Shown here one piece after another: positions 6,376 to 41,514 of a stretch of DNA of 64,000 nt. The notes under the pieces were generated by a model that was not told where the DNA came from, ran no database searches, and saw only the letters and a list, made by a program, of their open reading frames with translations. Made by a program: the position numbers and the translations under genes. The stretch comes from an uncultured Roseovarius sp. (GTDB lineage: Bacteria > Pseudomonadota > Alphaproteobacteria > Rhodobacterales > Rhodobacteraceae). Position 1 is the stretch's first letter. The number at the start of each line of letters is the position of its first letter. Location: positions 930,001-994,000 of the forward strand of contig CANMBU010000002.1 of assembly GCA_947496175.1 (NCBI GenBank). Direction: 5' to 3'.

Positions 6376-6414
6376 GCGGGCGTTGTGTCGTGGTAAGACC
6401 TTAGCCTTCCAAGC
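6376..6414 (+). pseudogene. 5' half of a tRNA-Gly(TCC) interrupted by the island
   Basis: The sequence matches the intact tRNA-Gly at 41304 from the acceptor strand GCGGGCG through the D arm and 5' anticodon strand TTAGC to the anticodon loop CTTCCAA, then stops matching after GC at 6414. The missing 3' half is found 35 kb away at 41469-41514. Its anticodon-stem strand is GCTAA, the exact complement of TTAGC here. The intact copy instead has TCAGC/GCTGA. The two fragments are therefore the halves of one original host gene. Confidence 0.88.
6404..6414 (+). other. attL core of the island
   Basis: GCCTTCCAAGC, covering the anticodon loop and adjoining stem bases of the tRNA. It is repeated exactly at 41469-41479 (attR) and inside the intact tRNA at 41332-41342. 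Crossover in the anticodon loop is common for tyrosine integrases that use tRNA genes. Confidence 0.75.
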
Positions 6415-6539
6415 AATTGATGTTATTTCCAGGAGGTACCTGTAAGTACCTAAATATCTAATAATATTGATTTAGTTGCAGTTTTGAGTTCCATGAGGTA
6501 CCATGCTGTACAGAAATTTTCCGACAAAAAACTGACAAA
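6415..6539 (+). promoter_or_regulatory. attL-to-integrase leader with paired GGTACC repeats
   Basis: AGGTAC and GTACCT form a 6-bp stem with a 6-nt loop at 6434-6451. The octamer GAGGTACC occurs at 6433-6440 and again at 6495-6502. Such repeats next to an integrase may be arm-type binding sites for the integrase or its excisionase. This is suggested by position only. TTTTCCGACA at 6517-6526 recurs at the right end (41385-41394). Confidence 0.4.
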
Positions 6540-7616
6540 ATGCCAAAACTCACAGAAACCTTCGTTCGCAAAATTCCCCAGACCGTGGTAGGTACGGACA
6601 AGCATTGGGATAGTGAGGTGAAGGGCCTCGTGATGTTCGTCGGCAAGAAAGCCAAGACCTGGTATTACCAGCGTGATGTTGGAGGGCAGACGCGGCGCGT
6701 TCTGATTGGTCGGTATCCGGTTATCTCGGCAGATGTCGCACGGCAAACGGCATTGGGCTTTGCTCTGGAATGGGGCAGGGGAGCTGGCAAGCGCATTGCC
6801 ATTGGGGCGCCAACACTAGAGGCAGCGCTCGAGACCTATCTTTCACGTCCAAAGCTGCGCTCTGAAACCCACAAGATGAGTATGCGGCAACAGTTCGAGT
6901 TGCACCTGAAGGATTGGCTCCGACTGCCACTGGACGAAATTACAAAGTCGATGGTGGTAGACCGCCACAGGGCGCTGGGTAAGACGCCGTCAACCGCGAA
7001 CCATCTGCTCAAGTATTTCCGCACGGTCTGGAACCACGCGCGCCGGGTGCATGACCTGCCAGAGTCCCCGACCATGGCCATTAAATGGTATGAGGAAAAG
7101 CCGGAAGGCCAGATCATCGACAATCTCCGCAACTGGCGCGATGAAGTTGATGGGTTGCTCAATCCGATCCACAAGGTCTTTTATGAGCTTCTGCTGTTCA
7201 CAGGCTTCCGTAAAACCGAAGCGCTGACTTTAGAATGGAAGCATGTGCATGAAGATCACATTCATCTGCCCATGACCAAGAATGGCCGTAGCTTTGATCT
7301 GCCCATTCTGCAGCACCACCATGAGATCCTAGCGCCGGTAAGGGGACTGAGCACGACGTGGGTGTTTCCCTCCCCCAAAGCCCCTGGTGGGCACATTACC
7401 AACCCCCAGAGAATGACCTTCGGCCCACACGCGCATCGCCGGACCTTCGCCACAGTGGCGATGGAGGCGGGCGTCATGGAAGAGATCGTGGGGCGGCTGC
7501 TCAATCACACGCCGCTGTCCATCACAGGGCAGAGATACACGAAACCCTCTCTTGATGCTTTGCGACCGCACATGGAGACTGTGTGTGAAGAGCTTGAAAA
7601 TCGATTGGGGGTTTGA
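6540..7616 (+). CDS. int: tyrosine-type site-specific integrase
   Basis: A 358-aa recombinase that should catalyse integration and excision of the island at the tRNA-Gly anticodon loop. The N-terminal part (about 1-80) is an arm-binding domain of the type seen in tRNA-targeting integrases, followed by a core-binding helical domain (about 90-185). The catalytic domain keeps all the residues expected: R224 (TGFRKTEALTL), K247, H297 and R300 (HAHRRTF), H323 (LLNHTPLS) and the nucleophile Y333 (RYTKP). It is intact and lies in the usual place, just inside attL. It may be transcribed from the truncated tRNA promoter at 6335. Confidence 0.93.
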   Translation: MPKLTETFVRKIPQTVVGTDKHWDSEVKGLVMFVGKKAKTWYYQRDVGGQTRRVLIGRYPVISADVARQTALGFALEWGRGAGKRIAIGAPTLEAALETYLSRPKLRSETHKMSMRQQFELHLKDWLRLPLDEITKSMVVDRHRALGKTPSTANHLLKYFRTVWNHARRVHDLPESPTMAIKWYEEKPEGQIIDNLRNWRDEVDGLLNPIHKVFYELLLFTGFRKTEALTLEWKHVHEDHIHLPMTKNGRSFDLPILQHHHEILAPVRGLSTTWVFPSPKAPGGHITNPQRMTFGPHAHRRTFATVAMEAGVMEEIVGRLLNHTPLSITGQRYTKPSLDALRPHMETVCEELENRLGV

Positions 7617-7617
7617 A

Positions 7618-8688
7618 GTGTCACAACTGGTCAGGCTGATTGTATCTGAAACCTCTCACCCCCAGATGCGGCTAACAGAACGCAAAATCGATGTCGCGTC
7701 AGATCAAGTTCTGGACCTCTACAAAGATCCAAAGCATCGACTCTGCCTTCAATCTGAGGTTCCACCCATAGAGCTAGTTCATATGCTGCAGAAGAGGATT
7801 CAGGGCACGCGGTCAATTGGTCCAGGGCTTTGGACTACTCCAGAATACATAAACAAACTGTCGCCGCTGTTGATCGAAAACGGCAGAGTCCAAAACTGTG
7901 TCGAGGGCCACTTCGTCGTGTGGCTTGATGGGTGCAATGAGTTCCGCTCATGGTCCCACTCAAAGCTGTTCGCATTGGATAGTCAGCAAGTGAGGCTTGT
8001 TGGCGACTTAATCCGACGCAGAGATGAATACTATCATCAACGGCATGAAGAATGCATTTCCTCTGTAATGCTAGAGATGGCAGCGCAAAGAAAAGCTTTC
8101 CTGGTCAATCCTGTATCGCGAGATGGATTGGTTTTCTGGGTGAAACTGAAACCTGCTGAGTATGAGTTCGTTGAGGCCGTGGACGAGCTGAAGCGGTGCG
8201 TGAACACAGCATTGAAGGCTGCGTTGCAGGAGGGGCGAGTGGTTGTCGCCCCAAAAAGCTACAAGGGAGAAAAACCGATTGATCTAACGGATTTGCAAAG
8301 TTGCTGGAAAGATGGAGCTGTCCTGAGCTCTGATGTTCTTCTACTTCCCACGTCTGAGTTCAGCGAGCCTTGGTTGCTTAGCAAACTAAAAAGCCAGAAG
8401 TTGAAGAAGCAAGTGGCCGTGCGGCAGACGAAAGAGTTTTTGGAAGCGATTTACACATGGGGAGTCGCGCGAGGTCTGCAGGCTAGCAGAAAGGACCTCA
8501 GGGACTTTGTTATTAAAGAATGCAAGATATCAGGCGAAGCATTTGACGAAGCTTGGAGAACTGCCAATATTACAGAATGGAGCAAAAGTGGTCGCATTAA
8601 AGCGAAGTACAAAATTGATTATAATAAAATCAGCGATTTAAATAATAGGGGGGAGGTTCCGTGGCCAGATTCCGTCTATTTCCCCTAA
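7618..8688 (+). CDS. hypothetical protein of the island integration module
   Basis: A 356-aa protein starting with GTG at 7618, one base after the integrase stop, so probably co-transcribed. An upstream in-frame start would overlap the integrase by 65 bp and has no ribosome-binding site. I do not recognise a family. Visible features are tryptophan-rich segments (GLWTTPEYINKL, LDGCNEFRSWSHSKLF), a charged stretch LKSQKLKKQV near residue 260, and a C-terminal segment that could be a small winged helix. There is no signal peptide or membrane helix, so it is cytoplasmic. Codon use is AT-richer than in the iron genes. It could be a replication or regulatory factor of the element, but nothing in the sequence proves this. 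Confidence 0.7.
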   Translation: MSQLVRLIVSETSHPQMRLTERKIDVASDQVLDLYKDPKHRLCLQSEVPPIELVHMLQKRIQGTRSIGPGLWTTPEYINKLSPLLIENGRVQNCVEGHFVVWLDGCNEFRSWSHSKLFALDSQQVRLVGDLIRRRDEYYHQRHEECISSVMLEMAAQRKAFLVNPVSRDGLVFWVKLKPAEYEFVEAVDELKRCVNTALKAALQEGRVVVAPKSYKGEKPIDLTDLQSCWKDGAVLSSDVLLLPTSEFSEPWLLSKLKSQKLKKQVAVRQTKEFLEAIYTWGVARGLQASRKDLRDFVIKECKISGEAFDEAWRTANITEWSKSGRIKAKYKIDYNKISDLNNRGEVPWPDSVYFP

Positions 8689-8736
8689 GCGGCTGACTGC
8701 ATCCTGATGGTGTCAAACACCATTCGGAGCAGTCAA

Positions 8737-8937
8737 ATGCAAAAAGAGAACAAGTCCAAATTGCTGTCGCGCCAAGAGGTCGAGGAAGTCTACGGGATCT
8801 CAAAGCGGTACCTGGAAAAGGTCAGCGTTCAAGGAGGTGGTCCTACGGTCATTCGGTTTGGACGCCTGGTGCGCTATCGTGCCAAAGATATTGAGCTTTG
8901 GATCGAAGCAAACGCGCATAAGGGAGCCGAACAATGA
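8737..8937 (+). CDS. excisionase / AlpA-like HTH DNA-binding protein
   Basis: A small MerR/AlpA-like helix-turn-helix protein (66 aa). The core is LLSRQEVEEVYGISKRYLEKVSVQGGGPTV followed by the basic wing IRFGRLVRYRAKDIELWI, the arrangement seen in phage and island excisionases. I chose ATG 8737, preceded by GGAGC, over the earlier in-frame ATG at 8707. It overlaps the next gene by ATGA. Its position two genes after the integrase supports a role as recombination directionality factor or element regulator. Confidence 0.8.
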   Translation: MQKENKSKLLSRQEVEEVYGISKRYLEKVSVQGGGPTVIRFGRLVRYRAKDIELWIEANAHKGAEQ

Positions 8938-9590
8938 AAAAGGCTCAATACGATAAGTTTCGGTTCACGTGGAAACAGAGCATTTTGGAGAGTGTCACTG
9001 TTCCGAATGCAACGAAATCAGTGGCGGTTATAATCTGCGACAAGTTTGTGAATAAAGGCACGGGAATGTTTTTTGCAGGCAATGATGCCTTAGCCGACAG
9101 CATAAAGCGCGACGTACGTACTGTTCAAAGACATCTCAGGATATTGGTCGCAGCGGGTTATCTGAAAAGTGTACGAATTCCCCGAAGGCGTCGTGCATAT
9201 CTGATCACAAATCCAGGTTCGCCTGAACCCGACAGCAAACATGACATTCAACATGACAAAAGCACCGCTGCGAAGGTGACAAATCTGACGGCGGAAAACG
9301 ACAAAACTGTCGTTCCCAATAGTAACCAAGTATGTAACCAAGGAAAAAAGCCAGCACGCGTGCACGCCTCATATGTGTCGATCAATGCCGATGACACAGC
9401 TGTGGTCAATTCGTGGAAACGCAGGTTGCGAGACGAACCAGCATTCAAATTCGAAGTCTTGTTTCCTTTGCTGAGAAGAGGAGATCAATATCGGTTTCCA
9501 AGACGTTTCCCACGTGAAGAAGAGAAAGCCGAATATGCTATGTTTTTCGAAGACGTAATTCAATCGAAGGGCAAGAGCATCTGGGGTTAG
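8934..9590 (+). CDS. winged-helix protein, possible element replication or regulatory factor
   Basis: A 218-aa protein translationally coupled to the excisionase-like gene (ATGA). Residues 20-90 resemble a winged helix-turn-helix of the kind found in plasmid and phage replication initiators: FAGNDALADSIKRDVRTVQRHLRILVAAGYLKSVRIP. A polar linker follows, then a basic aromatic C-terminus (LLRRGDQYRFPRRFP). It probably binds DNA. Whether it starts replication of the excised element or controls transcription cannot be told from the sequence. Base composition is lower in GC than in the flanking chromosome, consistent with transfer. Confidence 0.65.
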   Translation: MKKAQYDKFRFTWKQSILESVTVPNATKSVAVIICDKFVNKGTGMFFAGNDALADSIKRDVRTVQRHLRILVAAGYLKSVRIPRRRRAYLITNPGSPEPDSKHDIQHDKSTAAKVTNLTAENDKTVVPNSNQVCNQGKKPARVHASYVSINADDTAVVNSWKRRLRDEPAFKFEVLFPLLRRGDQYRFPRRFPREEEKAEYAMFFEDVIQSKGKSIWG

Positions 9591-9909: not shown

Positions 9910-10986
9910 TCAACCAATGGCGATCAAATGATTGTCCCATTGATATCCGGCATGACTGGTTTCTCCTGATGAATCTGCGGTGTCTCCGATAACCTCACCA
10001 AGGCCTGTCGTGAACAAAAAATCAGACGATGCGGGCGCAACTCCGCAGATATCCTTGGCCTTTACTACGCGTATTTGCTGCCCAAGACTGCCAAATACGA
10101 CGGCGAGATTGCCGCGTGGTCCTGTGACTGCGACCTGTCGTCCGTCTGCTGAGAATGCAACACTGCCTGCGTAACCTTGCATGCCGCGCTCCAATTGGTT
10201 CTCGGCGTGATGAAAGGTTAACGCCTTCCCAGGTCGGTGCGTTCCCAAGAGGGGTGGCGTGTCCTGCAAACTGCCCTCCCATTGGGTGGCGCACGCAACC
10301 AAGCCATCTGAGTGGACTGAGAGATGACGCAATGAGTTTTTGTGCCACGCCGCAGGCGGCGCGACTTGGTCAACCACAGAACCGTCAATCGCCAGATAAC
10401 TGAGGTTTGGGCGCATGGTTGGCAGGTTAAGCTTGGTGCGACCTGTCTCGGGATGTGTCTCAATACCGCCATTGGCCACGACAAGCGTTTCGCCATCTGG
10501 CATCAGCTTGATGTCATGTGGACCCACACCACCCGTTGGGAATTCCGCGATACGTTCAAAGTCGCGCGTCACATCCCATACGCCAACCATACCGCGCGCT
10601 TGGTCAAAATCGTTTTCGGTGGTGAACAGCAACTGGCCTTCAGGACCAAAGCAGCCATGACCACAGAAATGATGCGAGTGTGGTGTCTGAAGTTTTTTGA
10701 CAGCCGCGCCTGTCAGACAATCCACCACAAGTGCGTATGTGCCGGGCCGGCGCGCAAAGGCCACGGCCAGCGGGCGGGTCGGATGCGTAGCGGCCGCATG
10801 TCCTCTGTCTGGAAGAGGCACTTCAAAAAGCGCGCGGCCTTCGGTGGAAAGGCCAACCATGGCATACTGGCCATTTGGAAGCCTTGCCGCAGAGAGGTAA
10901 GACGGATGTCCCACATCCGCCCAGCTTGCGCGCGGCGCCACCCCCGTTGCCAAGAGACCTGCCACAAAGCTTCTGCGCGACGTCAT
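9910..10986 (-). CDS. DUF1513 family Tat-exported protein
   Basis: I chose ATG 10984-10986 (358 aa) because GGAG lies 6 nt upstream; a longer in-frame start at 10998 overlaps the imelysin stop. The N-terminus is a twin-arginine signal (MTSRRSFVAGLLATGVAPRASWA). The mature protein shows beta-propeller-like repeats (HPTRPLAVAFARRPG, PDGETLVVANGG, SADGRQVAVTG). DUF1513 proteins occur as the last gene of imelysin / di-heme oxidase clusters, which is exactly the position here. It is periplasmic, and its role in iron uptake is not established. It is the terminal gene of the hemP-led operon. Confidence 0.87.
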   Translation of the reverse strand: MTSRRSFVAGLLATGVAPRASWADVGHPSYLSAARLPNGQYAMVGLSTEGRALFEVPLPDRGHAAATHPTRPLAVAFARRPGTYALVVDCLTGAAVKKLQTPHSHHFCGHGCFGPEGQLLFTTENDFDQARGMVGVWDVTRDFERIAEFPTGGVGPHDIKLMPDGETLVVANGGIETHPETGRTKLNLPTMRPNLSYLAIDGSVVDQVAPPAAWHKNSLRHLSVHSDGLVACATQWEGSLQDTPPLLGTHRPGKALTFHHAENQLERGMQGYAGSVAFSADGRQVAVTGPRGNLAVVFGSLGQQIRVVKAKDICGVAPASSDFLFTTGLGEVIGDTADSSGETSHAGYQWDNHLIAIG

Positions 10987-10987
10987 A

Positions 10988-11998
10988 CTAGTCTCCATCC
11001 AACGAGTTAAAGCCAGCGCCTACGCCCAAGTGCCGCGCCAAATCTCCATCGACGATGGCTCTGAGTTGGTTGAGTGTCGTTTGCACGGCCTCCAGCCGGA
11101 TACGACCGCCTGGAGATTCGACCCCCGAAAAGTCTGGATCATTCAACTGGCGCAAACGCAGTTCTGCGGCTTTTTTCGACGTGGTCAGGCGATCTGATAC
11201 GCCTTGATCAGAGGACAGAGCCAAAGCCAAATCTGCGGCACTTTGAATTGCGGCCAATGCCAAATCTTGGCTTAGCCCTGATCGCCAAGCCTCGGCGCGC
11301 TTGGGTCTTGGTCGATCAAAACTGCCCAGTGGTCGGCCAAACCGCAGCTCAGATGTGAATTGCAGCCCGGTCGAGGCTGATTTGAACAAGACGGCGCTTA
11401 CTTCTTGCTCCGTTCTGTAGGCGCTGTCTTGGGTCGGTGATATCAGTGTTGGCGCAAATGCCTGCCACTCGGAGCTCAATGTGTCTGCGGTCTGCGCGAT
11501 GTCTTTCGCCAGAGCGCGAATGACGTCACAGCGATACGCGGGTGATCCGATCTCTGACAGCTCTGGATCAAAAAGCAGGTAATCCATCGCATAAAAACCA
11601 CGTTGCGCCACAGAGGCTTGCTGCATCTTTTCCGGTGTCAGAGCAGCGGCGTCTTCGGAAAGGATAAGTCCACGCAGAGCCTTGGGAGTTTTGCCACGCG
11701 GGTCTGGCCAGAACGCCAGCGCGAAGGCGCGGTTGTCTTCCTCGGAGGGCCCAAGGCGCAGATGGCTGACGCGGGCCCAACTGAGAAAGGCCTGACGATA
11801 CGCAGACCGGAGGTCTTCTGACTGGGGATTGCAATCATCTTGCGCGGTGCCTGCAAAATGCTGTGTCTGCACGGCGAGCTTTTCGAAGCCGGAAAGCACA
11901 TTCTCAGACACGATGGCTTCAATTTTGCTGCCTTGCGCAAAAGCCAGTCCTGTATGAGCAAAGGTGAGAACAACTGTCAGAACAATCATGCGTAGCAT
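10988..11998 (-). CDS. imelysin family protein (second of the operon)
   Basis: A 336-aa periplasmic protein with a signal peptide ending at GLAFAQ. It has the helical imelysin (M75-type) fold: RQAFLSWARVSHLRLGP and GFYAMDYLLFDPE correspond to conserved parts of the family. The GxHxxE motif of the iron-regulated IrpA branch is replaced here by GFYAMDY, so this is the divergent partner of the imelysin at 14760. Imelysins are linked to iron uptake in several bacteria, but the biochemistry is unclear. It sits between the di-heme oxidase (1 bp gap) and the DUF1513 gene, a widespread cluster order. Confidence 0.87.
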   Translation of the reverse strand: MLRMIVLTVVLTFAHTGLAFAQGSKIEAIVSENVLSGFEKLAVQTQHFAGTAQDDCNPQSEDLRSAYRQAFLSWARVSHLRLGPSEEDNRAFALAFWPDPRGKTPKALRGLILSEDAAALTPEKMQQASVAQRGFYAMDYLLFDPELSEIGSPAYRCDVIRALAKDIAQTADTLSSEWQAFAPTLISPTQDSAYRTEQEVSAVLFKSASTGLQFTSELRFGRPLGSFDRPRPKRAEAWRSGLSQDLALAAIQSAADLALALSSDQGVSDRLTTSKKAAELRLRQLNDPDFSGVESPGGRIRLEAVQTTLNQLRAIVDGDLARHLGVGAGFNSLDGD

Positions 11999-11999
11999 G

Positions 12000-13514
12000 C
12001 TACAAACTCTCCAGGAACCGTATCAGAGCGGCGCGATCCTCGGGGCCCATGCCAATCACTGCATCACGGTGTGCCTCGGCCTCTCCGCCATGCCACAGGA
12101 TCGCCTCCAGCAAAGATCGTGCGCGCCCGTCATGCAGGAAATAAGTGTGTCCACTCACCAGCTCGGTAAGCCCGATCCCCCACAGCGGCGGGGTCCGCCA
12201 TTCGCGACCGGTCGCGCGCGCTTCGGGGCGGTTGTCGGCAAGGCCTTCGCCCATATCGTGCAACAGCAAATCTGTGTAGGGCCAGATCAGTTGGAAGCTT
12301 TGTTCTGGCTGGTCCTCAAGCCGATGGGTGACAAAGGCAGGCGTGTGACAGGACACGCAGCCGGTCGTGTGGAACATTTCCTTACCGCGCAAAACAGTGG
12401 GATCTGACACGTCGCGTCGCATCGGTACCGCCAGGTTGCGGCTATAGAAGGTCACCAGATCGAGACCAACGTCATCCACTTCAAACTCACGCGCATCACC
12501 ATCGCCGTGAGGGGCGGCCCGGCAGTCCGCTTGCGCTTCGGTGCACTCACCCCAGGGAGATGGGAACAATGGGCTGGAAATTCCTATGTCGCCTGCAAAG
12601 GCCCCGGCGGATTGTTCTCGCACAGTTGGCGCGCCTGCTTTCAAACCGAAGCGACCCAACATGGGCCGCTGAAATTCAACCGACCAGACGATGTTTGGTC
12701 TTCCGGAAATGCCATCACCATCTTCATCACTTGGATCGGCATGCGCCAATATATCAGCGGCAGGAATGGCCTCTAACAGACCAAGGCCGATCATTTGGGG
12801 CGCAATGCGCGGGCTCAGCATCGCGTCGGGGTGCAACGGCCCATATCCAAGACTGTCCGCGGAATAGACAGGTTTGCGCAGGGTGACTGTTTCTCCCCCA
12901 GATAGAGCCACTTTGGTCTCTTCATAGGTGATCCCCAAGCTGTATTCAGCCGGGTGCCCGGCAAGGCCAAAGTCCTGAAGTTGGGTGCCGTAAACAGGGT
13001 CGGGTGCTGTGCCAATGTAGTCTTCGATTTGAGCCGTGTGTTCGGGCACATCCCCCGGAATTGAAACTCGAAGGAACATTGAAATCGACGTGTCGTCCGG
13101 CCCCTCTGGCGGGTGACCGCGACCATCCTTGATATGACAGCGTTGGCAGGATCGCGCGTTGTAAAGCGGCCCCAAACCGTCCGAGGCCAAAGTCGAAGAG
13201 GGGGCCGACACCCAAACCTTGCGGAAAAGCCCGTTCCCGACTTTGAAATCAAGCTCGTCCTCAAAAGCTATATTTCCCGATGGCTGCGAAAAGGCATCGG
13301 CGTTCTTGCGCGCCCGTACGGTCGCAGCTCCTGCCGACATTTGCTCAAACGCCTGCGGTTTTGAAAAATCCTCTGGTGGAGCAAGAACAGTTTCAATCCG
13401 AGCCTGCTCATCCGCTGTGCGGGGGACGATGTTCAGGTGTGGCTCATCCAGTGGCGCGGCACTCGCCGCCGAACCAATAAACAGAGCCAACAAAGAAATG
13501 CCGGCTTTGCTCAT
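12000..13514 (-). CDS. di-heme oxidoreductase family protein (DUF1111, thiol oxidoreductase)
   Basis: A 504-aa secreted c-type cytochrome starting at ATG 13512-13514 (signal peptide MSKAGISLLALFIGSAASAAP); an upstream in-frame start at 13589 would put 25 residues before the signal and is unlikely. Two heme-attachment motifs are present: CQRCH in the N-terminal half and CVSCH in the C-terminal half, followed by TPLWGIGLTELVSGHTYFLHDGRARSLLEAILWHGGEA, a hallmark of this family. It should transfer electrons in the periplasm. It is found with imelysins, and a part in iron redox chemistry during uptake is plausible but unproven. Confidence 0.9.
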   Translation of the reverse strand: MSKAGISLLALFIGSAASAAPLDEPHLNIVPRTADEQARIETVLAPPEDFSKPQAFEQMSAGAATVRARKNADAFSQPSGNIAFEDELDFKVGNGLFRKVWVSAPSSTLASDGLGPLYNARSCQRCHIKDGRGHPPEGPDDTSISMFLRVSIPGDVPEHTAQIEDYIGTAPDPVYGTQLQDFGLAGHPAEYSLGITYEETKVALSGGETVTLRKPVYSADSLGYGPLHPDAMLSPRIAPQMIGLGLLEAIPAADILAHADPSDEDGDGISGRPNIVWSVEFQRPMLGRFGLKAGAPTVREQSAGAFAGDIGISSPLFPSPWGECTEAQADCRAAPHGDGDAREFEVDDVGLDLVTFYSRNLAVPMRRDVSDPTVLRGKEMFHTTGCVSCHTPAFVTHRLEDQPEQSFQLIWPYTDLLLHDMGEGLADNRPEARATGREWRTPPLWGIGLTELVSGHTYFLHDGRARSLLEAILWHGGEAEAHRDAVIGMGPEDRAALIRFLESL

Positions 13515-13653
13515 GCCGTAATGGGTACTGGAACCGAGAGGCGGATGTGTGTGCGCCACGGTTCGTTGCCTCAGCCTTTTGGGTAACACCTAAGTTCTGC
13601 CTTCCTGTAAGATGTCCTGCTGTATCGGACGTTGTTTCCTGTCATCGCTGCCG

Positions 13654-14664: not shown

Positions 14665-14722
14665 TCTGTGTTGTCCTGAATAAGGTGCTGGCTAGACATC
14701 GCTTGGCTCGCAAGTTGAAAGT

Positions 14723-14745
14723 ACCGCGCCCTGGGGGAGCGCGGT
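14723..14745 (-). terminator. hairpin between imelysin and porin genes
   Basis: A perfect 7-bp stem (ACCGCGC / GCGCGGT) with a 9-nt loop. On the coding strand it is followed by ACTTTCAACTT, a weak T-tract. It lies inside the operon, so it may attenuate transcription or protect the upstream mRNA rather than end it. Confidence 0.4.
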
Positions 14746-14759
14746 CAGGGAAGTTCGTG

Positions 14760-16034: not shown

Positions 16035-16049
16035 TCTATTTTGTCCTTT

Positions 16050-30109: not shown

Positions 30110-30119
30110 AGCCATCCCC

Positions 30120-32757: not shown

Positions 32758-32766
32758 GCTCGTCTT

Positions 32767-34329
32767 ATGGCGTTGATCGCAGAGCAAACCAAGCGACTGA
32801 TCAATCTCCACGGATGGTTGGCCGTAAGCCTTTCGATTTTGCTCTATACGGTCATGTTGACTGGCACGGTCGTTGTCTTTTCCCATGAAATTGGCCACTG
32901 GGCAGAAGGCAAGACAGGCGAAGCAGGGCCACTAAGCAAACCGCTCAACCGTCACTTTCAGAGGCTTGCGGCACAAGTCCCCGTCGAGCTTCAGGAAGAC
33001 ATCATCGTGGGCGAAGGGCCGAACGGCACCTTGAGGTTTTTCTTTGGGTCGTCACAAGTGCGCATCGAGGCGGGTCGCAGTATCTTTGGAAGGCAGTTTC
33101 TCGTCGATCCTGCGTCCGGGCGTGTCGTAAAAGCGCAGGCAGGCCTTTTGGAGGATCTTGGCACTGGCATAGCGGATCGCGCGTTAGAGGACTTTCTGGT
33201 CGACCTGCATGTTAGACTGCATGTTCCAGGGCGCTGGGGGCTTTACATCACCGGCACGCTGGGTGTCGTGATGCTCATATCGGCGATCACCGGCGTTCTG
33301 ATCCACCGCAACATCTTCCGCGATTTCTTTGTGACCGAACGGCCGGGCGACCGCGTGGTGTCTATTCGAGATCGTCACAACCTGGCGGGTGTCTGGTCAC
33401 TGCCGTTTGCCATATTGCTGTCCTTCACCGGGGCGTTCTTGAGTTTTGCAGTCTCCTTGGGTCTTCCGATATTGGCCATGGTGGCGTTCGGCGGCGATCA
33501 GGAGGCGGCCTTGGAGGCCGTTATTGGGGTGCCGGTCATCGAAGAGCCACAACCGGCAAACCTTGCAAATCTGGACCCCATTGTCGCCGAAGCCGAGAAG
33601 ATCGCAAAAGCCCCCATTACGGTAATCAACATTCACCGCGGCGGTCGTGCTGACGCCATCGTGGAAACATTCCACGCCCAAGCTCCCGGCGCTTTGAGAG
33701 GAACATCGCTGGAATTCAAAGGACCAAGCGGCGCGTTTTTGGGGCACACCCATCTGGTTGGCACGCAAGCCTCAGTGGGATCAACGCTAGCCGAACTCAC
33801 CGCGCCTCTGCATTTCGGCGACTTCGCCGGAAAGACATCACGCCTCGTGTGGGCCGCATTGGGTGCGGCCATGACCTTTACCATCGTGTCGGGGATGCAA
33901 CTTTGGGTGCGCAGACGACATGACGATCCGTTCTGGAACTTCGCAGGGCGGGTGTTTTCAATCTCCACTTGGGTCGTGCCACTTGCCATGTTGGGCGCGG
34001 TCTATGGCTATTTCCTGACAAAGTTGGGGGGCAATCCAAGCTTGTGGACGGCGCGGGCATTCCTTCTCGCCTTGTGCGCCAGCCTGCTGGTCGCCGCGTG
34101 GTGGTGGGTCGCGCCAGTCAAAGAGCAAAACAAACGGTTTGGCAGAATACTAGCCGTGGGTGTTCTTCTCTTGCCTATCCTGCGTACACAGACAGGCGGG
34201 CTTTCCATTGGCGAAGCTCTTGCCACATGCTCACTCGACGTTTTGTTTATTGATGCGCTCTGTGTTTTGGTTGGAGCAGCAGTTTGGGCAGCTATACGCT
34301 CTAAAACTGGTCAAGTTAGTGTTGCCTAG
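32767..34329 (+). CDS. PepSY-associated TM helix protein (iron-uptake reductase type)
   Basis: A 520-aa inner-membrane protein. The N-terminal helix INLHGWLAVSLSILLYTVMLTGTVVVFSHEI carries the conserved His; a second helix pair LHVRLHVPGRWGLYITGTLGVVMLISAITGVLIHRNIF and DRHNLAGVWSLPFAILLSFTGAFLSF follows, with PepSY-like periplasmic regions between, and four or five more helices at the C-terminus. Such proteins are encoded beside siderophore receptors and some act as heme-bearing ferric-siderophore reductases. Operon with the 94-aa membrane protein, divergent from the receptor at 30120. Confidence 0.87.
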   Translation: MALIAEQTKRLINLHGWLAVSLSILLYTVMLTGTVVVFSHEIGHWAEGKTGEAGPLSKPLNRHFQRLAAQVPVELQEDIIVGEGPNGTLRFFFGSSQVRIEAGRSIFGRQFLVDPASGRVVKAQAGLLEDLGTGIADRALEDFLVDLHVRLHVPGRWGLYITGTLGVVMLISAITGVLIHRNIFRDFFVTERPGDRVVSIRDRHNLAGVWSLPFAILLSFTGAFLSFAVSLGLPILAMVAFGGDQEAALEAVIGVPVIEEPQPANLANLDPIVAEAEKIAKAPITVINIHRGGRADAIVETFHAQAPGALRGTSLEFKGPSGAFLGHTHLVGTQASVGSTLAELTAPLHFGDFAGKTSRLVWAALGAAMTFTIVSGMQLWVRRRHDDPFWNFAGRVFSISTWVVPLAMLGAVYGYFLTKLGGNPSLWTARAFLLALCASLLVAAWWWVAPVKEQNKRFGRILAVGVLLLPILRTQTGGLSIGEALATCSLDVLFIDALCVLVGAAVWAAIRSKTGQVSVA

Positions 34330-34614
34330 TGTTCGAGGTTCCCGTGTCGGCCCAAAAGAGACACTCGGCAGGATCCTACGATGCTGCGGTCGCAGGCCGC
34401 TTTCCAGCCGTTCGCTGCGAAGGCGGTCTTTTCGGAGGGTCGAACTCGCCAAATGCTGACTTTACGACCTTCATTGCGTTTGCACCAAGTACTGCTTGCT
34501 ATAGTTGCGAAAGCTCACGGCGCTATGGCTTGCTTGAGTTTTTTTGGCCTTTAGGATGAGCACACATAAGATTTGGGCATTTTGCGAATAGCTCGTTTAC
34601 AAGGAGGCGTTTCC
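34330..34614. other. intergenic region before the peptidase gene
   Basis: 285 bp with short inverted words (TCGCAGGCCGC, CTGCGAAGGCGG). No gene is supported. The peptidase ribosome-binding site AAGGAGG is at 34601-34607. Confidence 0.4.
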
Positions 34615-36606
34615 ATGAAGAAAACATGCTCAAGGTACTCGGCTACTTTGATGGTCGCTTTGTTTTGCTTGCCATCTTATTCAGTTGCGGATTCCTCAAA
34701 CCCATTCATCCTAACTTACCAAGGACGCAGCATTGACAGTGCACCGTATTCCTTTGCCTTTCCTTACCGAATAGAACTCGCAGCGATTGAACATCAAAAG
34801 ATTTACTTCAGCCGTCACGTGGAAGGGGAAGGTAAACATCTCTTCGTCACGGATTGGGATCCTTCAAAATCAATATCACTCGATAGTCAGTCAGCCACGA
34901 AAGTCACCAATACCAACCTGAATTCGATTAACTTCTGGCGCAGATATCTCAACACGCGCCTTGGCGGACTGGTTGCCGAAGCGGATGAGGACAAAGCCGA
35001 ACGAATAAACCTTTGGCTTTTCGCAGACGGAACGGACAAGCCGCGCAAGTTGACGGATGTGGATTACGTCTACGAATTTACTCAATCAAAAGATCACAGC
35101 GCGATTTATTATACCACTCGATATGGATCGTCAGATGCGGCCAAAGGGTGCTTAGAAGAGCTGACAATCGAAGAGGATGGCAGCACGCAAACCCGTCAAC
35201 TTATATGCGACGATAATCCAGCAATGCCAGCACGCATCAACTGGTGGACAAAACTCCGGGCAGACTCTGAGCGCGTGGTGTTTCCTGCGCTCAAAGATGG
35301 CGATCGTAACAAACAAGAACTTTACGCCTACAATTTGTCTGATGGTTCCGTTTCCCTGATGTTCGAAGGCCATGGAAAAGGTTGGGTGGAAGTGCGGCAT
35401 GGTTGGGGTGATGAATCACAAGCACTATTTTCAGCTGACCGTGATCTGTACCGCTACGATTTCGAAGCGGATGAGGCGGTTTTGTTACACCGCTTTGATC
35501 GCACCCTTTCTGGGTTTCAACCTGCGGGCTCGGGTGAAACTCCTAATATCATGGTCACAACCGAAACGCCCTTTGAGACAAAACTAGAGGTATTTACCGT
35601 CGAATCTGACCGATTGACACCTCTGTCAATGACCACTCTGCCGGAAGATGTTTGGCTTGCTGATGGTTACGACGGCCAAGTTATGGTCGGCAAGTTTTCC
35701 CCAGAAACATACGCTGCATTCGATGTGCTGACTGTAATGCATGATGGCGGCTTCACGTCACAGAGCGTAATCAAAGGTCTAGCAGAGATCAATGATCAAC
35801 TCAGCCAGTGTAATGTCGAACGGGTGCAAATCACTCATGAGGACAAAAGCAGTCAATCGCCAGGTACCCAAACTCTAGATGTGTTTGTTTACCGCCCAAG
35901 AGACCTGCCTCCCATCGAAGAACAGAAATTTATTATAACCGCTTACTATGGCGGTAAGAATGAGTTTTCGTCCTACCATCATCTTTTTTGCGCTTTAGGT
36001 TTGACCACAGTCAGCCCCGCCGTGCGCGGGGATTGGCGGTATGGAACAGAGTTTGCCAACAGCAACGATCGTGAAAAAGCTGATGCACCTATCCGGGATA
36101 CTCTCGCCGTCGCACGCTATCTTGTAGAACGGTACGAAATTCCAAACAGTAGGCAGATCGGCACAACCGGATACAGTCATGGCGGATGGGCAGCGGTTCG
36201 CGCACTCAGCTACCCAGGGCCAGAACGGCTTGATCTGGGCTTTGCCATAGCAGGCGGTGGATTTTACGACCTACCCGCTGTCGTTGATCCTTCAAAAAAT
36301 GGTGAGACAAATATCCATGGCTGGTTCGACAAGGAATTTGGGCCTGCCGATCAGCAGGAGCTATTGCGCGCTCTGTCACCTATCGCGCACGTTGACGAGA
36401 TTTCAGCGCCAATATTCCTTTATCACGCAGACCGCGATACTCGCGTCTCTCCGAACCAATCTTACGACTTTTCGGAACGCTTGGCCGAAGCCGGTAAATC
36501 TTACGAGTTGATGATAATTCCCGACCAAGGTCATAGCATCCGTGGCCCCGAAATCTGGGCTGAAATCCGGCAGCGCCTGTTGGATTTTGTCTCCCAAACT
36601 CCGTGA
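34615..36606 (+). CDS. secreted prolyl-oligopeptidase-type serine hydrolase
   Basis: A 663-aa protein; the start at ATG 34615 follows AAGGAGG and begins a signal peptide (MKKTCSRYSATLMVALFCLPSYSVA), so the enzyme is periplasmic or secreted. The first 400 residues look like a seven-bladed beta-propeller; the alpha/beta hydrolase domain follows. The catalytic triad is visible: Ser521 in GYSHGG, Asp608 in HADRDTRV and His640 in DQGHSI. It is an S9-family peptidase or esterase. GC content is lower than in its neighbours and it has no link to iron, so it was probably acquired separately. The substrate is unknown. Confidence 0.88.
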   Translation: MKKTCSRYSATLMVALFCLPSYSVADSSNPFILTYQGRSIDSAPYSFAFPYRIELAAIEHQKIYFSRHVEGEGKHLFVTDWDPSKSISLDSQSATKVTNTNLNSINFWRRYLNTRLGGLVAEADEDKAERINLWLFADGTDKPRKLTDVDYVYEFTQSKDHSAIYYTTRYGSSDAAKGCLEELTIEEDGSTQTRQLICDDNPAMPARINWWTKLRADSERVVFPALKDGDRNKQELYAYNLSDGSVSLMFEGHGKGWVEVRHGWGDESQALFSADRDLYRYDFEADEAVLLHRFDRTLSGFQPAGSGETPNIMVTTETPFETKLEVFTVESDRLTPLSMTTLPEDVWLADGYDGQVMVGKFSPETYAAFDVLTVMHDGGFTSQSVIKGLAEINDQLSQCNVERVQITHEDKSSQSPGTQTLDVFVYRPRDLPPIEEQKFIITAYYGGKNEFSSYHHLFCALGLTTVSPAVRGDWRYGTEFANSNDREKADAPIRDTLAVARYLVERYEIPNSRQIGTTGYSHGGWAAVRALSYPGPERLDLGFAIAGGGFYDLPAVVDPSKNGETNIHGWFDKEFGPADQQELLRALSPIAHVDEISAPIFLYHADRDTRVSPNQSYDFSERLAEAGKSYELMIIPDQGHSIRGPEIWAEIRQRLLDFVSQTP

Positions 36607-36866: not shown

Positions 36867-39800
36867 TTAGTATCGCATGCGCCTACGGATCATTGCCTCA
36901 TTGTCCTGCCACTCGGCCTCAGCGATATACTTGCGAACCATCTCACGCAGGATTCTCGCCATGCGAGGATGCTCGAACTCGCAAGCTTTAGCCCAGCCCT
37001 CGTATTGATCCGCCAGCTCTCGCTCTTGCGCTCCGCCTTCACCCCGCCAAGTCACACCGCGAGCATTGTAGCGCCCGATTGTGATGCCGCGCTCAATCTC
37101 GACGCTATAAAGATCATTGACGGCTTCCCGTACAGATTCACAAGGCCATGATCCATCTTCTCCCAAAGGGGCGTGTGCGAGGATTTCGCCGATCTGATAA
37201 TCAAGCATGGCGCGATGACCTGTTGGCTCACTGATGCGCCTTGCCTCGATAATCCATTCCTTCAGTTTCTGCGCCTGGATGACACCGTGTTCATCAACTC
37301 CAGGCACTGAAGAAAGTGCATCAATAAAGGTGTTAGCGTTTCTGGCGGCCGTCTTCTGTTCATCGGTAGGTTCCACATCCCTGGGTTCGTTCTTTCCCCT
37401 GTAGGCCATGCGAATGGCCTCGCAGAAAAGAGACGGGTTGTCGTTTACCTCGGCCTCAAGGTTAGGAATACGTCCCCTATCGAACCGGAAGACCTCCAGA
37501 TACAAGAACTCGAGACTCGCCATCCTCTCACGACTAATTGTGCCGCGCGAATTGAGGATCTTGAACACCTCCTCAATGGAATGTCGATCCATCGAGGATG
37601 CTCCCCGCTCAGCTTCATCGCTTCGGGGAAGAGCCTGCAGGATCTCGTAGAGCTGTTCGGACGCGATGCTTTTCAGGTCCAGATGGACAAATTGCAGCGC
37701 CGTTAGACCGCGTCGGGCTTCAATGAGTTTTGCGACGGCGTAGCGCAGCTCATCTTCTGTCTGCCTCGCCCAGGGTGCGGACACAGTTTTCCAGTACACT
37801 TCGGACACTGCCCCGCTTGAAGCCTCCACAGCGTCCCAAACTGTCTGCCCAAACCGGCAAAGGCAGAAGAGGCGCACCAGCTGATCACTGGTCAGTTCGC
37901 CGCGCAATCTGTTGATAAAGCCAACCGAATTCTTGTCTCCCAGCGAGAAAAAGAAGCCATCCAGCAGGAACTGTAGCTTGGTCGAAATCAGGAACTCGGG
38001 ATCGCCTACGATTCGCCGGATAAAGGCGAGCTGGTCCGCCTCGGAGCTCATGATCTGCCCGAGAATATTACCCACTATGTGCGAAGCATTCCCAGATAGA
38101 GCAAGGCGTACGGCACCAGTAACACTTTCCTGCGCCAACACCGCTTCGACGCCCGCCTTTCGTTGTTTGGCGATGCGCACGTCTCGCGCTTCAAAGTCGT
38201 GTTCATCGTCGTGGATATCTTCCCACGAGTTCTCTACCCATGAATTCTTGAACAGCCACGCGTGCTTCCAGACGATATCGCTGGGTTCCAACTCGTCATA
38301 GATATCGCGCGCCTTGTTTATGTTGGTTTTCGTAGCCGTCTTCGGCGCTCCCTTCTTGCTCAGGCGGCGGGCACTTCTACTAACACCCACGCGGATTTGC
38401 TCCCTTAACCAGGCCCGATCCTCGTCGGTGGCCGCTTTTGCCCAGTCGACAACGCGATCCCACACGCGAGCGCGATAGTCGTCTCCAAAACCCTCCAGGC
38501 TATCCACCAAATCAGCAAGTTTCTCTCTTGTCATTGGCGTCCAAGAAAGGGCTACCTCAAGGCAGTATTCTTCAAATTTCCAGCGCTCTCCGTTGGTCAC
38601 CACTTCGCCACTACCAAAGGCATAGTCCCTCCATTTCGGCTTGACGCTGTAATGGCCAGTCCGGGACCGTAAGTCATACTGGTCCCTCGCAACCGTCCAT
38701 CCGACTTCAGGAAAGTGCTTCACCAATTGTTCCAAGGCTGCAATCCGCTGCTCTACGTTGGCTGAAGTTTGCGGCATCCAGCTACGGAAGATCGAAAGCA
38801 GGCTTTGCATCGCGTTGTTGCCGCTACGATCCTCAGGCTCTAGTTCGGAAAGCTTTGCAAGCACATCCACGACACGCGGGAGATATTCCGGCGACCATGC
38901 CAACAAATCCAGCGCCCACAGCAGTCCAACTCGTGGATTACTGGAAAACAGGGGGTCACCGACCGGGCGCATCAAGGCTTGTGTGCTCGGATCATTTCTA
39001 GCCAAGTCCCGCTCAATAATGCCCAGGAACTCTTCTGGCGCGGCCTCAGCATACCGCTGGAATGCATCGGATTGAGACTCCATCGTTTCGCCGTCCATAT
39101 TTGCGAAAAGCTTTCTCACCAGCAGCGTTGCCTGAGATTGCGTATCCACACCCAGCTTGCTCCTGAAGAGCCCGTTACCGTGCATCGCCAGAATAACCAA
39201 GCTGTCGGCGATGCCCTCTCGCAGCGTAGAAGATATGTCGCGGGTCTTGCCGTGGATACTCGCTGCCCAGCGTTCACTTTCCGGAAGGTCGAGTGAAGGA
39301 TCGGGCTCCGAAAGCACAAGGTCTGCAGCCTGATAGTAGCGTTCAAGGTCCTCCGGCGTCACCCATTGATGCACCGCGTAGAGGGCGTCAATCTTGGACA
39401 CGATCCCTCGGAAGGAACCTATGGACCAAACGGGCGAACTCTCGATTGGTAGCAGATCGCCGAACTCCCTCTCGACTTCCGCATATCGGTCCTCACCCAT
39501 TAAATGGCAAAGGACAAATCGGTCAGCTTCGTTGTCATTCTTCCATGCGCCTGCCAGCATGAACGGAAATACTGAGCGCGCAAGCGCCTTGTCAGCGCTC
39601 CATGCCGGTGACTTGATTGCCTGATCTCGTGCAAGGCGGCGGCGCAGCACCGTGAGAGACCGGCCCGACTCCTCCTTGAGGCGTTCTATCGCATCGCCGC
39701 CCAGCCCCATTGTTTCGAGGCCTTTTCGGAATGCTTCTCCGCTGAGGGGATCAAGAACAATATCAGCCTCGCTTTGTACCATCGTGCGCGGCACGATTGA

Positions 39801-40943
39801 AATTCCACCAAGACGCGTTCCCGTCTCAGCCAGCTCAACCTCGGTTTCGCGGTTTGTAACGATCGGTATGAAGCGGGATGACTTGTTGGCGAGTTCGGTT
39901 AGTGGCCCGGCTTCGGAGAAGACGACCACGCGGTCGCGTATCGCTGAAAGTTCAGGGTCGTCTTCGCTCAACATCGCGTAAACAAACGCAAGACCTTCAA
40001 GCACGGAGTCCGACGCGATCCGAAGCGCTCGATCCTCCCCTCGCAAATGTGCAAGGAGCTTCTTGCCAGCAATAATCGACGCTTCGTCAAATATGTGCGG
40101 CGTAAAGGCTGGGTCGCAATCCGCATTCCACTTCACCCAGCAGCGTTCAAGTGACTTCGTGCCACGGAAATCTTTGCCGTTCTCGTTGGCGAACCAAACC
40201 TGAGCAGGAATAGACTGTTCCATCCATTGCTCAAGGTTGCTGGCGTCCAGAACGACGACATCTTTCCATTGCTTCTTGGACAGTTGTGCCGTTTGCCAGG
40301 CATCCTTTCCTGACCAACGTCGGGGCGTAACGAAGACAAACGTCGTTTTGAGCCTCTCGGCTTTGGAGATGGCTTTCACGCTCTTGGAAAAGTCACCGTC
40401 GGCTTTCTCTTTGATATTTTTGTTTGTTCCGAACTCCCAGCCGGACGCGCCAGTAGGTATCCACGGATTTCCTGCCAGCGTCTCGACCTCTCCATCCCAG
40501 CCGGGACGCTGAGAGTCATCATGAGCGGGGAAGTCCACTTTCTGAAGACCGTCACAGGTTGAGTGAACCAGTATCCTCAACAACGCAGCTAACTTGGCGC
40601 GTGAATCCACGCTACTTGCCCACTGCTCCATGTCATTTGCCTTCGGGGCAGCAAAAGGCGGCACGAAGCTCCTTACAGCGGTCATGTTTGTCGTCGACGC
40701 ACTAATGCCGGCATCGAAAACACTCTGCATCGCAAGCAGTTCACTCGCGCTCACGCCAAATGCTTTTTCAAGCTTCATGGCCATTTCACTTGAAAGGCTT
40801 GCGTTACCGTTCAGAAGATTCGACAGGGCGGGCCGTCCGACGCCAATCGCCTTGGCGGCTTGAGTTACATTCATCCCCTTTGGGATGACATTGCTCTTGA
40901 TGTATGGACCGGGATGGTCCGCGTTTGTGATTTTGCTCGACAT
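36867..40943 (-). CDS. HigA-type HTH fused to a giant protein with a possible nuclease-like segment
   Basis: A 1358-aa protein starting at ATG 40941-40943 after AGGGG. Residues 10-78 form a HigA/VapI-type antitoxin domain: HPGPYIKSNVIPKGMNVTQAA, then IGVGRPALSNLLNGNASLSS and EMAMKLEKAFGVSASELLAMQ. Residues 130-250 contain GWDGEVE (D150), GWEFGTNK (E170) and nearby lysines (K178, K180), reminiscent of a PD-(D/E)XK nuclease, then TTFVFVTPRRWSGKDAW and WKDVVVLDASNLEQWMEQ. From about 300 to the end it is mostly helical. A segment RIASDSVLEGLAFVYAML occupies the place of a P-loop but has no Walker A. No separate toxin gene adjoins. I believe I have seen similar large proteins without described function. 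Defence is an inference. Confidence 0.75.
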   Translation of the reverse strand: MSSKITNADHPGPYIKSNVIPKGMNVTQAAKAIGVGRPALSNLLNGNASLSSEMAMKLEKAFGVSASELLAMQSVFDAGISASTTNMTAVRSFVPPFAAPKANDMEQWASSVDSRAKLAALLRILVHSTCDGLQKVDFPAHDDSQRPGWDGEVETLAGNPWIPTGASGWEFGTNKNIKEKADGDFSKSVKAISKAERLKTTFVFVTPRRWSGKDAWQTAQLSKKQWKDVVVLDASNLEQWMEQSIPAQVWFANENGKDFRGTKSLERCWVKWNADCDPAFTPHIFDEASIIAGKKLLAHLRGEDRALRIASDSVLEGLAFVYAMLSEDDPELSAIRDRVVVFSEAGPLTELANKSSRFIPIVTNRETEVELAETGTRLGGISIVPRTMVQSEADIVLDPLSGEAFRKGLETMGLGGDAIERLKEESGRSLTVLRRRLARDQAIKSPAWSADKALARSVFPFMLAGAWKNDNEADRFVLCHLMGEDRYAEVEREFGDLLPIESSPVWSIGSFRGIVSKIDALYAVHQWVTPEDLERYYQAADLVLSEPDPSLDLPESERWAASIHGKTRDISSTLREGIADSLVILAMHGNGLFRSKLGVDTQSQATLLVRKLFANMDGETMESQSDAFQRYAEAAPEEFLGIIERDLARNDPSTQALMRPVGDPLFSSNPRVGLLWALDLLAWSPEYLPRVVDVLAKLSELEPEDRSGNNAMQSLLSIFRSWMPQTSANVEQRIAALEQLVKHFPEVGWTVARDQYDLRSRTGHYSVKPKWRDYAFGSGEVVTNGERWKFEEYCLEVALSWTPMTREKLADLVDSLEGFGDDYRARVWDRVVDWAKAATDEDRAWLREQIRVGVSRSARRLSKKGAPKTATKTNINKARDIYDELEPSDIVWKHAWLFKNSWVENSWEDIHDDEHDFEARDVRIAKQRKAGVEAVLAQESVTGAVRLALSGNASHIVGNILGQIMSSEADQLAFIRRIVGDPEFLISTKLQFLLDGFFFSLGDKNSVGFINRLRGELTSDQLVRLFCLCRFGQTVWDAVEASSGAVSEVYWKTVSAPWARQTEDELRYAVAKLIEARRGLTALQFVHLDLKSIASEQLYEILQALPRSDEAERGASSMDRHSIEEVFKILNSRGTISRERMASLEFLYLEVFRFDRGRIPNLEAEVNDNPSLFCEAIRMAYRGKNEPRDVEPTDEQKTAARNANTFIDALSSVPGVDEHGVIQAQKLKEWIIEARRISEPTGHRAMLDYQIGEILAHAPLGEDGSWPCESVREAVNDLYSVEIERGITIGRYNARGVTWRGEGGAQERELADQYEGWAKACEFEHPRMARILREMVRKYIAEAEWQDNEAMIRRRMRY

Positions 40944-41255
40944 AATCCACCCCTGAAGCAAGTCGCCTTAGGCAACTGTATCGTGTAGCGCTACACAATA
41001 CAACTCGTTTGTGGATCGCATTCTTCATACCTCGGCGCATCGCGCCTTTGCTCGAGAATAGCGCTCAGTTGGAGGGCGGCTTTTACAGTCGGCACGGAAT
41101 GCGTTCGCACGTGCGGTGAACTTCGGCTTTCCGCCCTTAGTGAGTGGTTACAGCCTGTGTTTTCAGTACCGTCCACCTTTAGTTTTGGACCGAACTTAAG
41201 TTTCTGGGCAGCAATTCCTATATAGATCGTGAGATAGGTTTGTTGTTTCTTGCTG
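40944..41255. other. upstream region of the HigA-fused gene
   Basis: 312 bp including the operator at 40977-41002. Beyond it, towards the tRNA, I see no gene; the reverse-strand frame across 40804-41040 is a shadow of the large gene and does not read as a HigB toxin. Confidence 0.5.
40977..41002. promoter_or_regulatory. HigA-like palindromic operator
   Basis: A 26-bp inverted repeat pairing 12 of 13 positions: TGTAT-C-GTGTAGC on the left and GCTACAC-A-ATACA on the right, with the perfect core GTGTAGCGCTACAC at 40983-40996. It ends 34 bp upstream of the ATG of the HigA-fused gene, overlapping its likely promoter. GTGTAGC-GCTACAC palindromes are, as I recall, common in front of higBA loci. Autoregulation through the fused HTH is the natural reading. 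Confidence 0.65.
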
Positions 41256-41261
41256 TCAGTA

Positions 41262-41290
41262 TTGACCTTGGAAAACCAATGAAATAACAG
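41262..41290 (+). promoter_or_regulatory. promoter of the intact tRNA-Gly
   Basis: TTGACC at 41262-41267, 17-nt spacer, TAACAG at 41285-41290, ending 13 nt before the tRNA. The 48 bp before this tRNA differ from those before the split tRNA (6329-6375) by only four positions, so the two share ancestry including the promoter. Confidence 0.65.
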
Positions 41291-41303
41291 GTTCCAGAGA
41301 GCA

Positions 41304-41377
41304 GCGGGCGTTGTGTAGTGGTAAGACCTCAGCCTTCCAAGCTGATGACGCGGGTTCGATTCCCGCCGCCCGCTCCA
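41304..41377 (+). tRNA. tRNA-Gly, anticodon TCC
   Basis: The complete cloverleaf can be read: acceptor GCGGGCG / CGCCCGC, D arm with AGTGGTAA, anticodon stem TCAGC / GCTGA enclosing loop CTTCCAA (anticodon TCC at 41336-41338), T stem GCGGG / CCCGC with loop TTCGATT, discriminator T and encoded CCA at 41375-41377. It lies within the island, about 90 bp from the right attachment core. It should replace the host gene whose halves are at 6376 and 41469. A run of T (41383-41388) follows and may end the transcript. Confidence 0.95.
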
Positions 41378-41468
41378 AAAACTTTTTTCCGACACGATGC
41401 CGACAAAAGCCACTCTATGATACTTCTAAGCTATTGAAGTAAAAAAGTAGAATTGAATTTGCATACGT

Positions 41469-41479
41469 GCCTTCCAAGC
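41469..41479 (+). other. attR core of the island
   Basis: GCCTTCCAAGC, an exact copy of the core at 6404-6414. Recombination between the two would excise about 35 kb and rebuild the host tRNA-Gly. Confidence 0.75.
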
Positions 41480-41514
41480 TAATGACGCGGGTTCGATTCC
41501 CGCCGCCCGCACCA
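41469..41514 (+). pseudogene. 3' half of the split host tRNA-Gly(TCC)
   Basis: Begins in the anticodon loop (CCTTCCAA), continues with stem strand GCTAA, T arm, acceptor strand CGCCCGC, discriminator A and CCA at 41512-41514. It differs from the intact tRNA in the stem (GCTAA, not GCTGA) and discriminator (A, not T). GCTAA pairs perfectly with TTAGC in the 5' half at 6376-6414, which identifies the pair. Confidence 0.88.

Follow-up and report, generated by a model that had tools for sequence, protein, structure and literature searches.

A genomic island of Rhodobacteraceae that splits tRNA-Gly(TCC) and carries an intact tRNA-Gly gene beside its attachment site

The stretch analysed here (the window; 64,000 nucleotides, positions 930,001 to 994,000 of contig CANMBU010000002.1, assembly GCA_947496175.1, from an uncultured Roseovarius sp.) contains a 35-kb island that lies within the anticodon loop of a host tRNA-Gly(TCC) gene, the two halves of which stand apart at the island's ends, and an intact tRNA-Gly(TCC) gene is found 91 bp from the right core. 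Very probably we are dealing with an integrative element that integrates in a tRNA-dependent manner and carries its own replacement tRNA-Gly beside the element's attachment site (attP). A tyrosine integrase would recombine attP with the 7-nt anticodon loop of the host gene (attB), leaving hybrid sites on the left (attL) and right (attR), and the cell would survive by means of the element's complete tRNA-Gly gene, which abuts an attP arm. The circular form is predicted to read promoter, tRNA, about 11 bp, arm repeats, core, arm repeats and integrase, and the working copy would therefore end up at the right end on integration; because it keeps the CTTCCAA loop, the replacement could itself be the next target. 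Integrase activity, arm binding, excision, and tRNA expression and essentiality are deduced from sequence in this scheme. The features concerned are as follows.

6376..6414, + strand: 5′ half of host tRNA-Gly(TCC), tRNA positions 1-39 (39 nt, attL side)
6404..6414, + strand: core GCCTTCCAAGC at attL, with the crossover placed in CTTCCAA of the anticodon loop
6521..6537, + strand: paired arm-like repeats CCGACA and CTGACA, 19 and 8 bp ahead of the integrase start, putative binding sites
6540..7616, + strand: tyrosine integrase (Arm-DNA-bind_3 and Phage_integrase family profiles)
41118..41303, + strand: upstream region of the replacement tRNA, with TTGACC at 41262 as likely -35 box; also present in the related genome G075
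41304..41377, + strand: intact replacement tRNA-Gly(TCC), the sole one found in the genome
41378..41468, + strand: spacer of 91 bp, with arm-like repeats CCGACA at 41389 and 41400
41469..41514, + strand: 3′ half of host tRNA-Gly(TCC), tRNA positions 29-74 (46 nt, attR side)
41572..42951, + strand: host right flank, FAD oxidoreductase gene, which adjoins the uninterrupted tRNA in the related genome G031

The split gene, the intact copy and the unoccupied site

On direct reading, the two halves have the exact 11-mer GCCTTCCAAGC in common. Once the intact gene had been masked, the tRNA's 5′ part matched the window at 6376 with 37/39 positions (runner-up 22/39) and the 3′ part at 41469 with 44/46 (runner-up 28/46); the match of the two halves to tRNA-Gly(TCC) is no chance likeness. 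Joining the outer flanks in silico at the core gave a 74-nt tRNA-Gly(TCC) by ARAGORN, which found no tRNA in either half taken singly, the target being rebuilt at neither junction. At 41304-41377 lies the one tRNA gene that ARAGORN and Rfam (61.8 bits) each detect in the window. The initial annotation of this DNA had described a tRNA-Gly(TCC) split in its anticodon loop by a 35-kb island, with halves that belong together, a separate intact gene, no rejoining of the target at either end and a whole replacement gene carried at the right end. These points are borne out by the exact positions, by the whole tRNA obtained from the joined flanks and by the anticodon-stem alleles, which are TTAGC/GCTAA in the joined halves and TCAGC/GCTGA in the intact copy. 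There are four differences between the two, namely T27-A41 for C27-G41, which is a compensated stem pair, C for A14, and A for T at the discriminator. From the TTAGC/GCTAA allele common in Roseovarius, the joined halves differ at A14C and T71A (the discriminator) alone, and since both columns are invariant across 13 aligned intact copies, these changes look like decay that followed the split.

The unoccupied site appears in G031, where a single uninterrupted tRNA-Gly gene without any spacer has 156 bp on its left that match the left flank of the window (84%) and 6 kb on its right that match the right flank at 88.9%. The locus is collinear with the joined window flanks (87% over 365 columns) and, judged by this alignment, is the unoccupied site of the island. 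Uninterrupted, single-copy and collinear with both outer flanks, it carries no tandem duplication of the kind that had been named beforehand as a sign against an insertion. The prediction that an empty site would have TTAGC/GCTAA together with discriminator A did not hold, however: the G031 allele is TCAGC/GCTGA with discriminator T, and the TTAGC/GCTAA copies of the genus likewise have T.

tRNA-Gly(TCC) should be the sole reader of GGA codons. In the genome to which the window belongs (3.85 Mb, 13 contigs, 99.96% complete), a DNA search returned, besides the two halves and Gly-CCC, one intact Gly-TCC gene, and an Rfam tRNA search listed 41 tRNAs, among them a single Gly-TCC, a single Gly-CCC and a single Gly-GCC. 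Tyr, Ile and Ala-TGC are absent from this list, so either the list or the assembly is incomplete or these genes lie in collapsed rRNA regions. The count of Gly(TCC) genes, proposed earlier as a check, thus yielded no intact one besides the island copy, and the broken host gene is apparently non-redundant within the limits of the assembly, outside which an extra Gly-TCC gene is possible. The same genome has a tRNA-like gene with a 6-nt anticodon loop, CTTTAA, to which ARAGORN assigns no amino acid (L036:101-175, at C2:786683).

The carried tRNA looks functional, its stems being kept via compensatory changes. When 13 of the 18 distinct carried copies were aligned, 95.6% of the cells were paired, 12 of 21 pairs had changed on both sides, and the covariation score of 0.391 was reached in 0 of 500 shuffles; pairing fell to 40-55% when the partners were slid. 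One D-stem pair is unpaired in seven of the 13. TTGAC stands at -47 to -38 in 46 of 48 carried genes but also in 55 of 66 Gly tRNA genes outside the module defined below, so that it is an ordinary element of tRNA-Gly promoters and no hallmark of the island.

Recurrence of the module and anatomy of its attachment site

The arrangement is family-wide in Rhodobacteraceae and no one-off. An integrase match at 1e-20 was obtained in 17 of 84 genus genomes, and the 10 close copies (73-100% identity, in nine of the 84) all lie directly downstream of a 5′ half. A contig scan for integrase relatives gave 87 relatives, from which 79 distinct loci were analysed; the integrase adjoins a tRNA-Gly 5′ half in 73 of them, 68 by blastn and five by eye (L191, L225 and L245, which are Gly-CCC, and L228 and L240, which have the TTTTCCAA variant of Gly-TCC). 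Among the 68 loci measured, core and integrase are 128 bp apart in 43. At the other end of the island, we defined a module as a tRNA followed after 86-96 nt by a 3′ half at 65% identity or more. A search of 36 integrase-bearing genomes led to 30 loci being examined, and the order tRNA, 90-93 nt, 3′ half was found in 25. Overall, the module is present in 48 of 114 distinct Gly-TCC/CCC loci, with spacers of 89-93 nt that are exactly 91 nt long in 40; these 114 loci are not random, coming mostly from searches for these tRNAs, the integrase or the arm motif. Among the matches listed, at least 14 of the 84 genus genomes bear the module. The pattern of a tRNA end followed by the arm motif occurs in 46 of 394 family genomes (reversed control, 0), a figure that includes chance matches or decayed modules, since 13 of 30 pattern loci checked have a 3′ half. 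Two integrase copies with near-identical 5′ halves lie on two contigs of G027 (L139 and L137), perhaps representing two islands.

The carried tRNA may also follow a change of target from Gly-TCC to Gly-CCC, as is suggested by genomes G122 and G536, in which islands split Gly-CCC and a Gly-CCC module is present. In the integrase tree there is no clustering by target type, although just two Gly-CCC rows are included, L191 among Gly-TCC rows under an open fork and L225 on a long branch.

The motif CYKRCA occurs no more than 45 bp ahead of the integrase start in 68 of 69 loci, chiefly at -19 and -8, as against 2 of 69 for a control stretch inside the integrase gene. The 69 loci are the window and 68 of the 79 named above, 11 having been left out (Gly-CCC cases, truncated integrases, contig edges and one duplicate genus genome). 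On the right, the spacer consensus contains TTTCCGACA and CCTACAAA, and a related arm motif directly follows the tRNA in 46 of the 48 modules versus 21 of 66 non-modules, many of which were picked by a pattern search for that very motif. The integrase would be expected to bind arm-like repeats on both sides. In 20 of 46 Gly-TCC modules the base preceding CTTCCAA at attR is the element's T, not C. The two bases that follow TTCCAA at attL differ from GC in 36 of 68 loci, up to seven of which may have the host's AC of the TTTTCCAA variant. With bases of the element flanking the core at both attR and attL, strand exchange is placed within CTTCCAA.

In five of the 48 modules a second 3′ half occurs at 225-230 nt, the offset predicted for another spacer and half (L277, 0.80; L248, 0.72; L318, 0.70; L300, which repeats L258, 0.67; L335, 0.66). 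A value of 0.62 was reached by none of the 48 modules at two control offsets and by none of the 66 non-modules at the predicted offset, the cut-off having been fixed after the first matches had been seen. By eye, the second 3′ halves of L277, L318 and L335 are clear and those of L248 and L258 degenerate; only in L318 and L335 does the second spacer show arm-like repeats. Three different bodies occur in G130, one each in the replacement, the first 3′ half and the second, and the first 3′ half shares its allele with the 5′ half at the opposite end, which we read as a second element having broken the replacement brought by a first. Newer islands thus seem to have broken earlier replacements at these five modules. 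On balance we lean, though not strongly, towards the view that an apparently non-phage island family has made an essential tRNA gene into a self-renewing site, at which each arrival breaks the current tRNA-Gly and leaves its own copy as the next target. The tRNA of the cell would be swapped repeatedly, sometimes for distant versions, and the 3′ fragments spaced by attP arms of about 91 bp would be the fossil record.

Alternative explanations and the fate of the island

It could be that the host tRNA was duplicated in tandem, that one copy was truncated and that an unrelated island landed there, in which case the intact copy would be the host's own. Of the 48 modules, 18 have a carried tRNA whose likeness to the broken 3′ half is 0.97 or more, 15 lie at 0.90-0.97 and 15 below 0.90. 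Near-identity in the 18 is equally expected from duplication, and the two copies of the window share about 60 bp of upstream sequence. However, G031 has one copy and no spacer, the 91-nt spacer with its arm repeats recurs alongside the integrase family, and, besides the 15 modules below 90%, the tRNA bodies differ in G130 as described and in G124, where the body of the replacement is unlike that of the halves and the anticodon is TCC in each. We hold a tandem duplication to be very improbable, and reject it on account of G031 and the differing bodies. Even less probable is the view that the island is of the ordinary restoring kind and that a rearrangement later displaced the restored tRNA. According to the Islander study (PMC4383910), restoring islands commonly have an attP centred on the anticodon, but attP and attB have 11 bp in common here, the core at attL is followed by bases of the element in the 36 of 68 loci given above (up to seven possibly the host's), and the same non-restoring layout recurs across genera. 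The short core, the element bases at attL and the lack of a tRNA at either junction led us to discard it.

A third possibility, which we regard as unlikely, is that the carried tRNA is mainly an addiction device, stabilising the island because deletions that remove the tRNA kill the cell. The initial annotation had gone in this direction in holding that imprecise loss would be lethal and the island self-stabilising. The island copy is indeed the sole Gly-TCC gene found, but the claim is too strong. Precise excision would restore the host gene, and a direct repeat at the island ends (6316-6414 versus 41243-41342; 100 columns, 92%) should permit homologous recombination that would delete the island and spare the intact replacement. 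Moreover, six of the at least 14 module-bearing genus genomes (G001, G006, G008, G009, G070 and G107) have no intact close integrase among the matches listed, and G075 seems to have lost the island yet kept the carried tRNA. There, the host right flank starts directly after the tRNA, with no spacer, no 3′ half and no island to speak of; the tRNA is preceded by 186 bp of island-type DNA (96%), with an IS3-type (insertion sequence) transposase further left, and the host left flank resumes at the homologue of window position 2878. Among the matches listed, G075 has one Gly-TCC match and one 76% match. Its history likely involved an IS-linked deletion of the island plus loss of the spacer and 3′ half; the opposite direction, in which the island acquired the tRNA and its upstream DNA from a G075-like chromosome, is conceivable as well. 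We had also considered G075 as a clean empty site and dropped it in view of the island-type DNA and the transposase. Stabilisation by the carried tRNA would be a by-product at the right end at most, and selection should hold the tRNA, not the cargo.

Several observations, in addition to the 18 near-identical modules, weigh against tRNA-dependent integration with a carried replacement. In six of the 79 integrase loci there is no 5′ half; four of these begin inside the protein and one has 106 bp upstream, leaving L224 unexplained. The 3′ half is absent in five of the 30 loci examined in integrase-bearing genomes (L249, L253, L254, L261 and L272). G083 has a 5′ half with integrase, but its intact tRNA is of a different allele from that 5′ half and lacks both spacer and 3′ half, and no Gly-CCC module was found in G124, which encodes the third Gly-CCC integrase (L225). 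As to function, further pair types in the carried copies were not above shuffles (85/500), and a scan for consensus promoter and terminator found nothing.

Some relatives bear on the later fate of the island. G001, G006 and G009 are candidate scars of homologous deletion, the left flank being too variable within the genus for a firmer reading. In G105 (one contig; L142/L143) the left end, with 5′ half and integrase at 1.08 Mb, lies far from the right end, with tRNA and 3′ half at 4.30 Mb; both ends are on one strand, a layout that hints at a rearrangement having passed through the island. A second intact copy in G101 was set aside as a probable assembly overlap, with 626 bp upstream and 567 bp downstream matching at 98% and both copies less than 800 bp from contig ends.

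Cargo, known systems and implications

Between the integrase and the replacement tRNA, the island of the window encodes the following.

7552..8688, + strand: protein without family match
8934..9590, + strand: HTH_36 protein, with weak likeness to replication initiators
9910..36606, no single strand: cargo, mainly iron and haem uptake, by family profile scans
36867..40961, - strand: 1364-aa protein with a HigA-like N-terminal helix-turn-helix (HTH) and a phrog_18693 body

The cargo comprises DUF1513, two imelysins, di-haem oxidoreductase, porin, HAD, HemS, periplasmic binding protein, FecCD, ABC ATPase, two TonB receptors, GNAT, ferritin, TonB/ExbD/ExbD/ExbB, PepSY_TM and S9 peptidase. The 1364-aa protein matches TIGR02607 above cut-off at its N-terminal HTH and phrog_18693 (unknown function) over its body (1.4e-147), and weakly PADLOC PD-Lambda-4_A (2.6e-6); it may serve in defence or addiction. 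Scans of sister islands covered 10 of 11 open reading frames (ORFs) in G131, 10 of 12 in the stretch analysed of G027 and 10 of 29 in G130, and revealed transposases, HTH_36, SIR2-like and SMC-like proteins, HerA/TrwB-like ATPases, a C5 methylase and a second integrase. The SIR2-like proteins beside HerA-like or SMC-like ATPases (L283:1878-4986 in G130 and L281:4990-9724 in G027) resemble anti-phage defence cargo. Because the largest protein cluster just behind the integrase, an HTH protein, is present in only 14 of 63 loci, the integrase and the tRNA are what the islands share as a core.

No phage structural families were found among the window proteins scanned or in the scanned ORFs of the three sister islands. 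Integrase relatives in phage records are at 24-27% in the 15 matches listed out of 16, and none was confirmed in IMG/VR. Against plasmids, the integrase-region DNA gave no match and the protein 24-27% in the 15 matches listed out of 22. Relaxase and type IV secretion families were absent from the window proteins scanned, some small ORFs being unscanned, so that the island does not qualify as an integrative and conjugative element. It apparently works like tRNA-dependent lysogeny without evidence of a temperate phage.

The principle has already been published for phages, with rhizobial precedents, and the proposed mechanism is that of tRNA-dependent lysogeny. In actinobacteriophages, the need for the carried tRNA was shown by experiment (Guerrero-Bustamante & Hatfull 2024, PMC10865867); like these phages, the island has its attB in a tRNA gene and a short core (11 bp here), and the tRNA is not rebuilt, whereas here we deal with apparent cargo islands of Rhodobacteraceae in which the tRNA is fixed beside attP and replacements are apparently re-targeted. 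The vTRX32-1-like prophages of Rhizobium (PMC8631192) similarly disrupt tRNA-Leu at a 12-bp core and carry a whole tRNA-Leu, but theirs is described as lacking the 12-bp core, which its authors take as preventing super-integration, and here the target loop is kept. In Sinorhizobium meliloti prophages and islands (PMC11476347), a broken tRNA-Leu is replaced by a tRNA closer to those of other alphaproteobacteria, and some islands carry tRNA genes; its authors state that no evidence exists of carried tRNA genes serving as new integration sites, a use that the stacked 3′ halves suggest here. With canonical tDNA islands (Islander, PMC4383910) the element shares a tyrosine integrase and an anticodon-centred crossover, although their target is rebuilt at one junction via an attP identity block. 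No title listed in a search of open-licence PMC literature deals with this Rhodobacteraceae island family, and as far as the literature searched goes, the island setting, the fixed tRNA-attP-integrase module, the matched change of target and the stacks are new.

The findings would take tRNA-dependent integration beyond actinophages, into an island family that is widespread in marine Rhodobacteraceae, and point to a route for the horizontal, perhaps serial, replacement of an essential tRNA gene. An intact tRNA standing alone near an island end can be a foreign replacement, which programs that look for islands by a rebuilt target would misread, and the history of tRNA genes in these bacteria may reflect mobile elements instead of descent.

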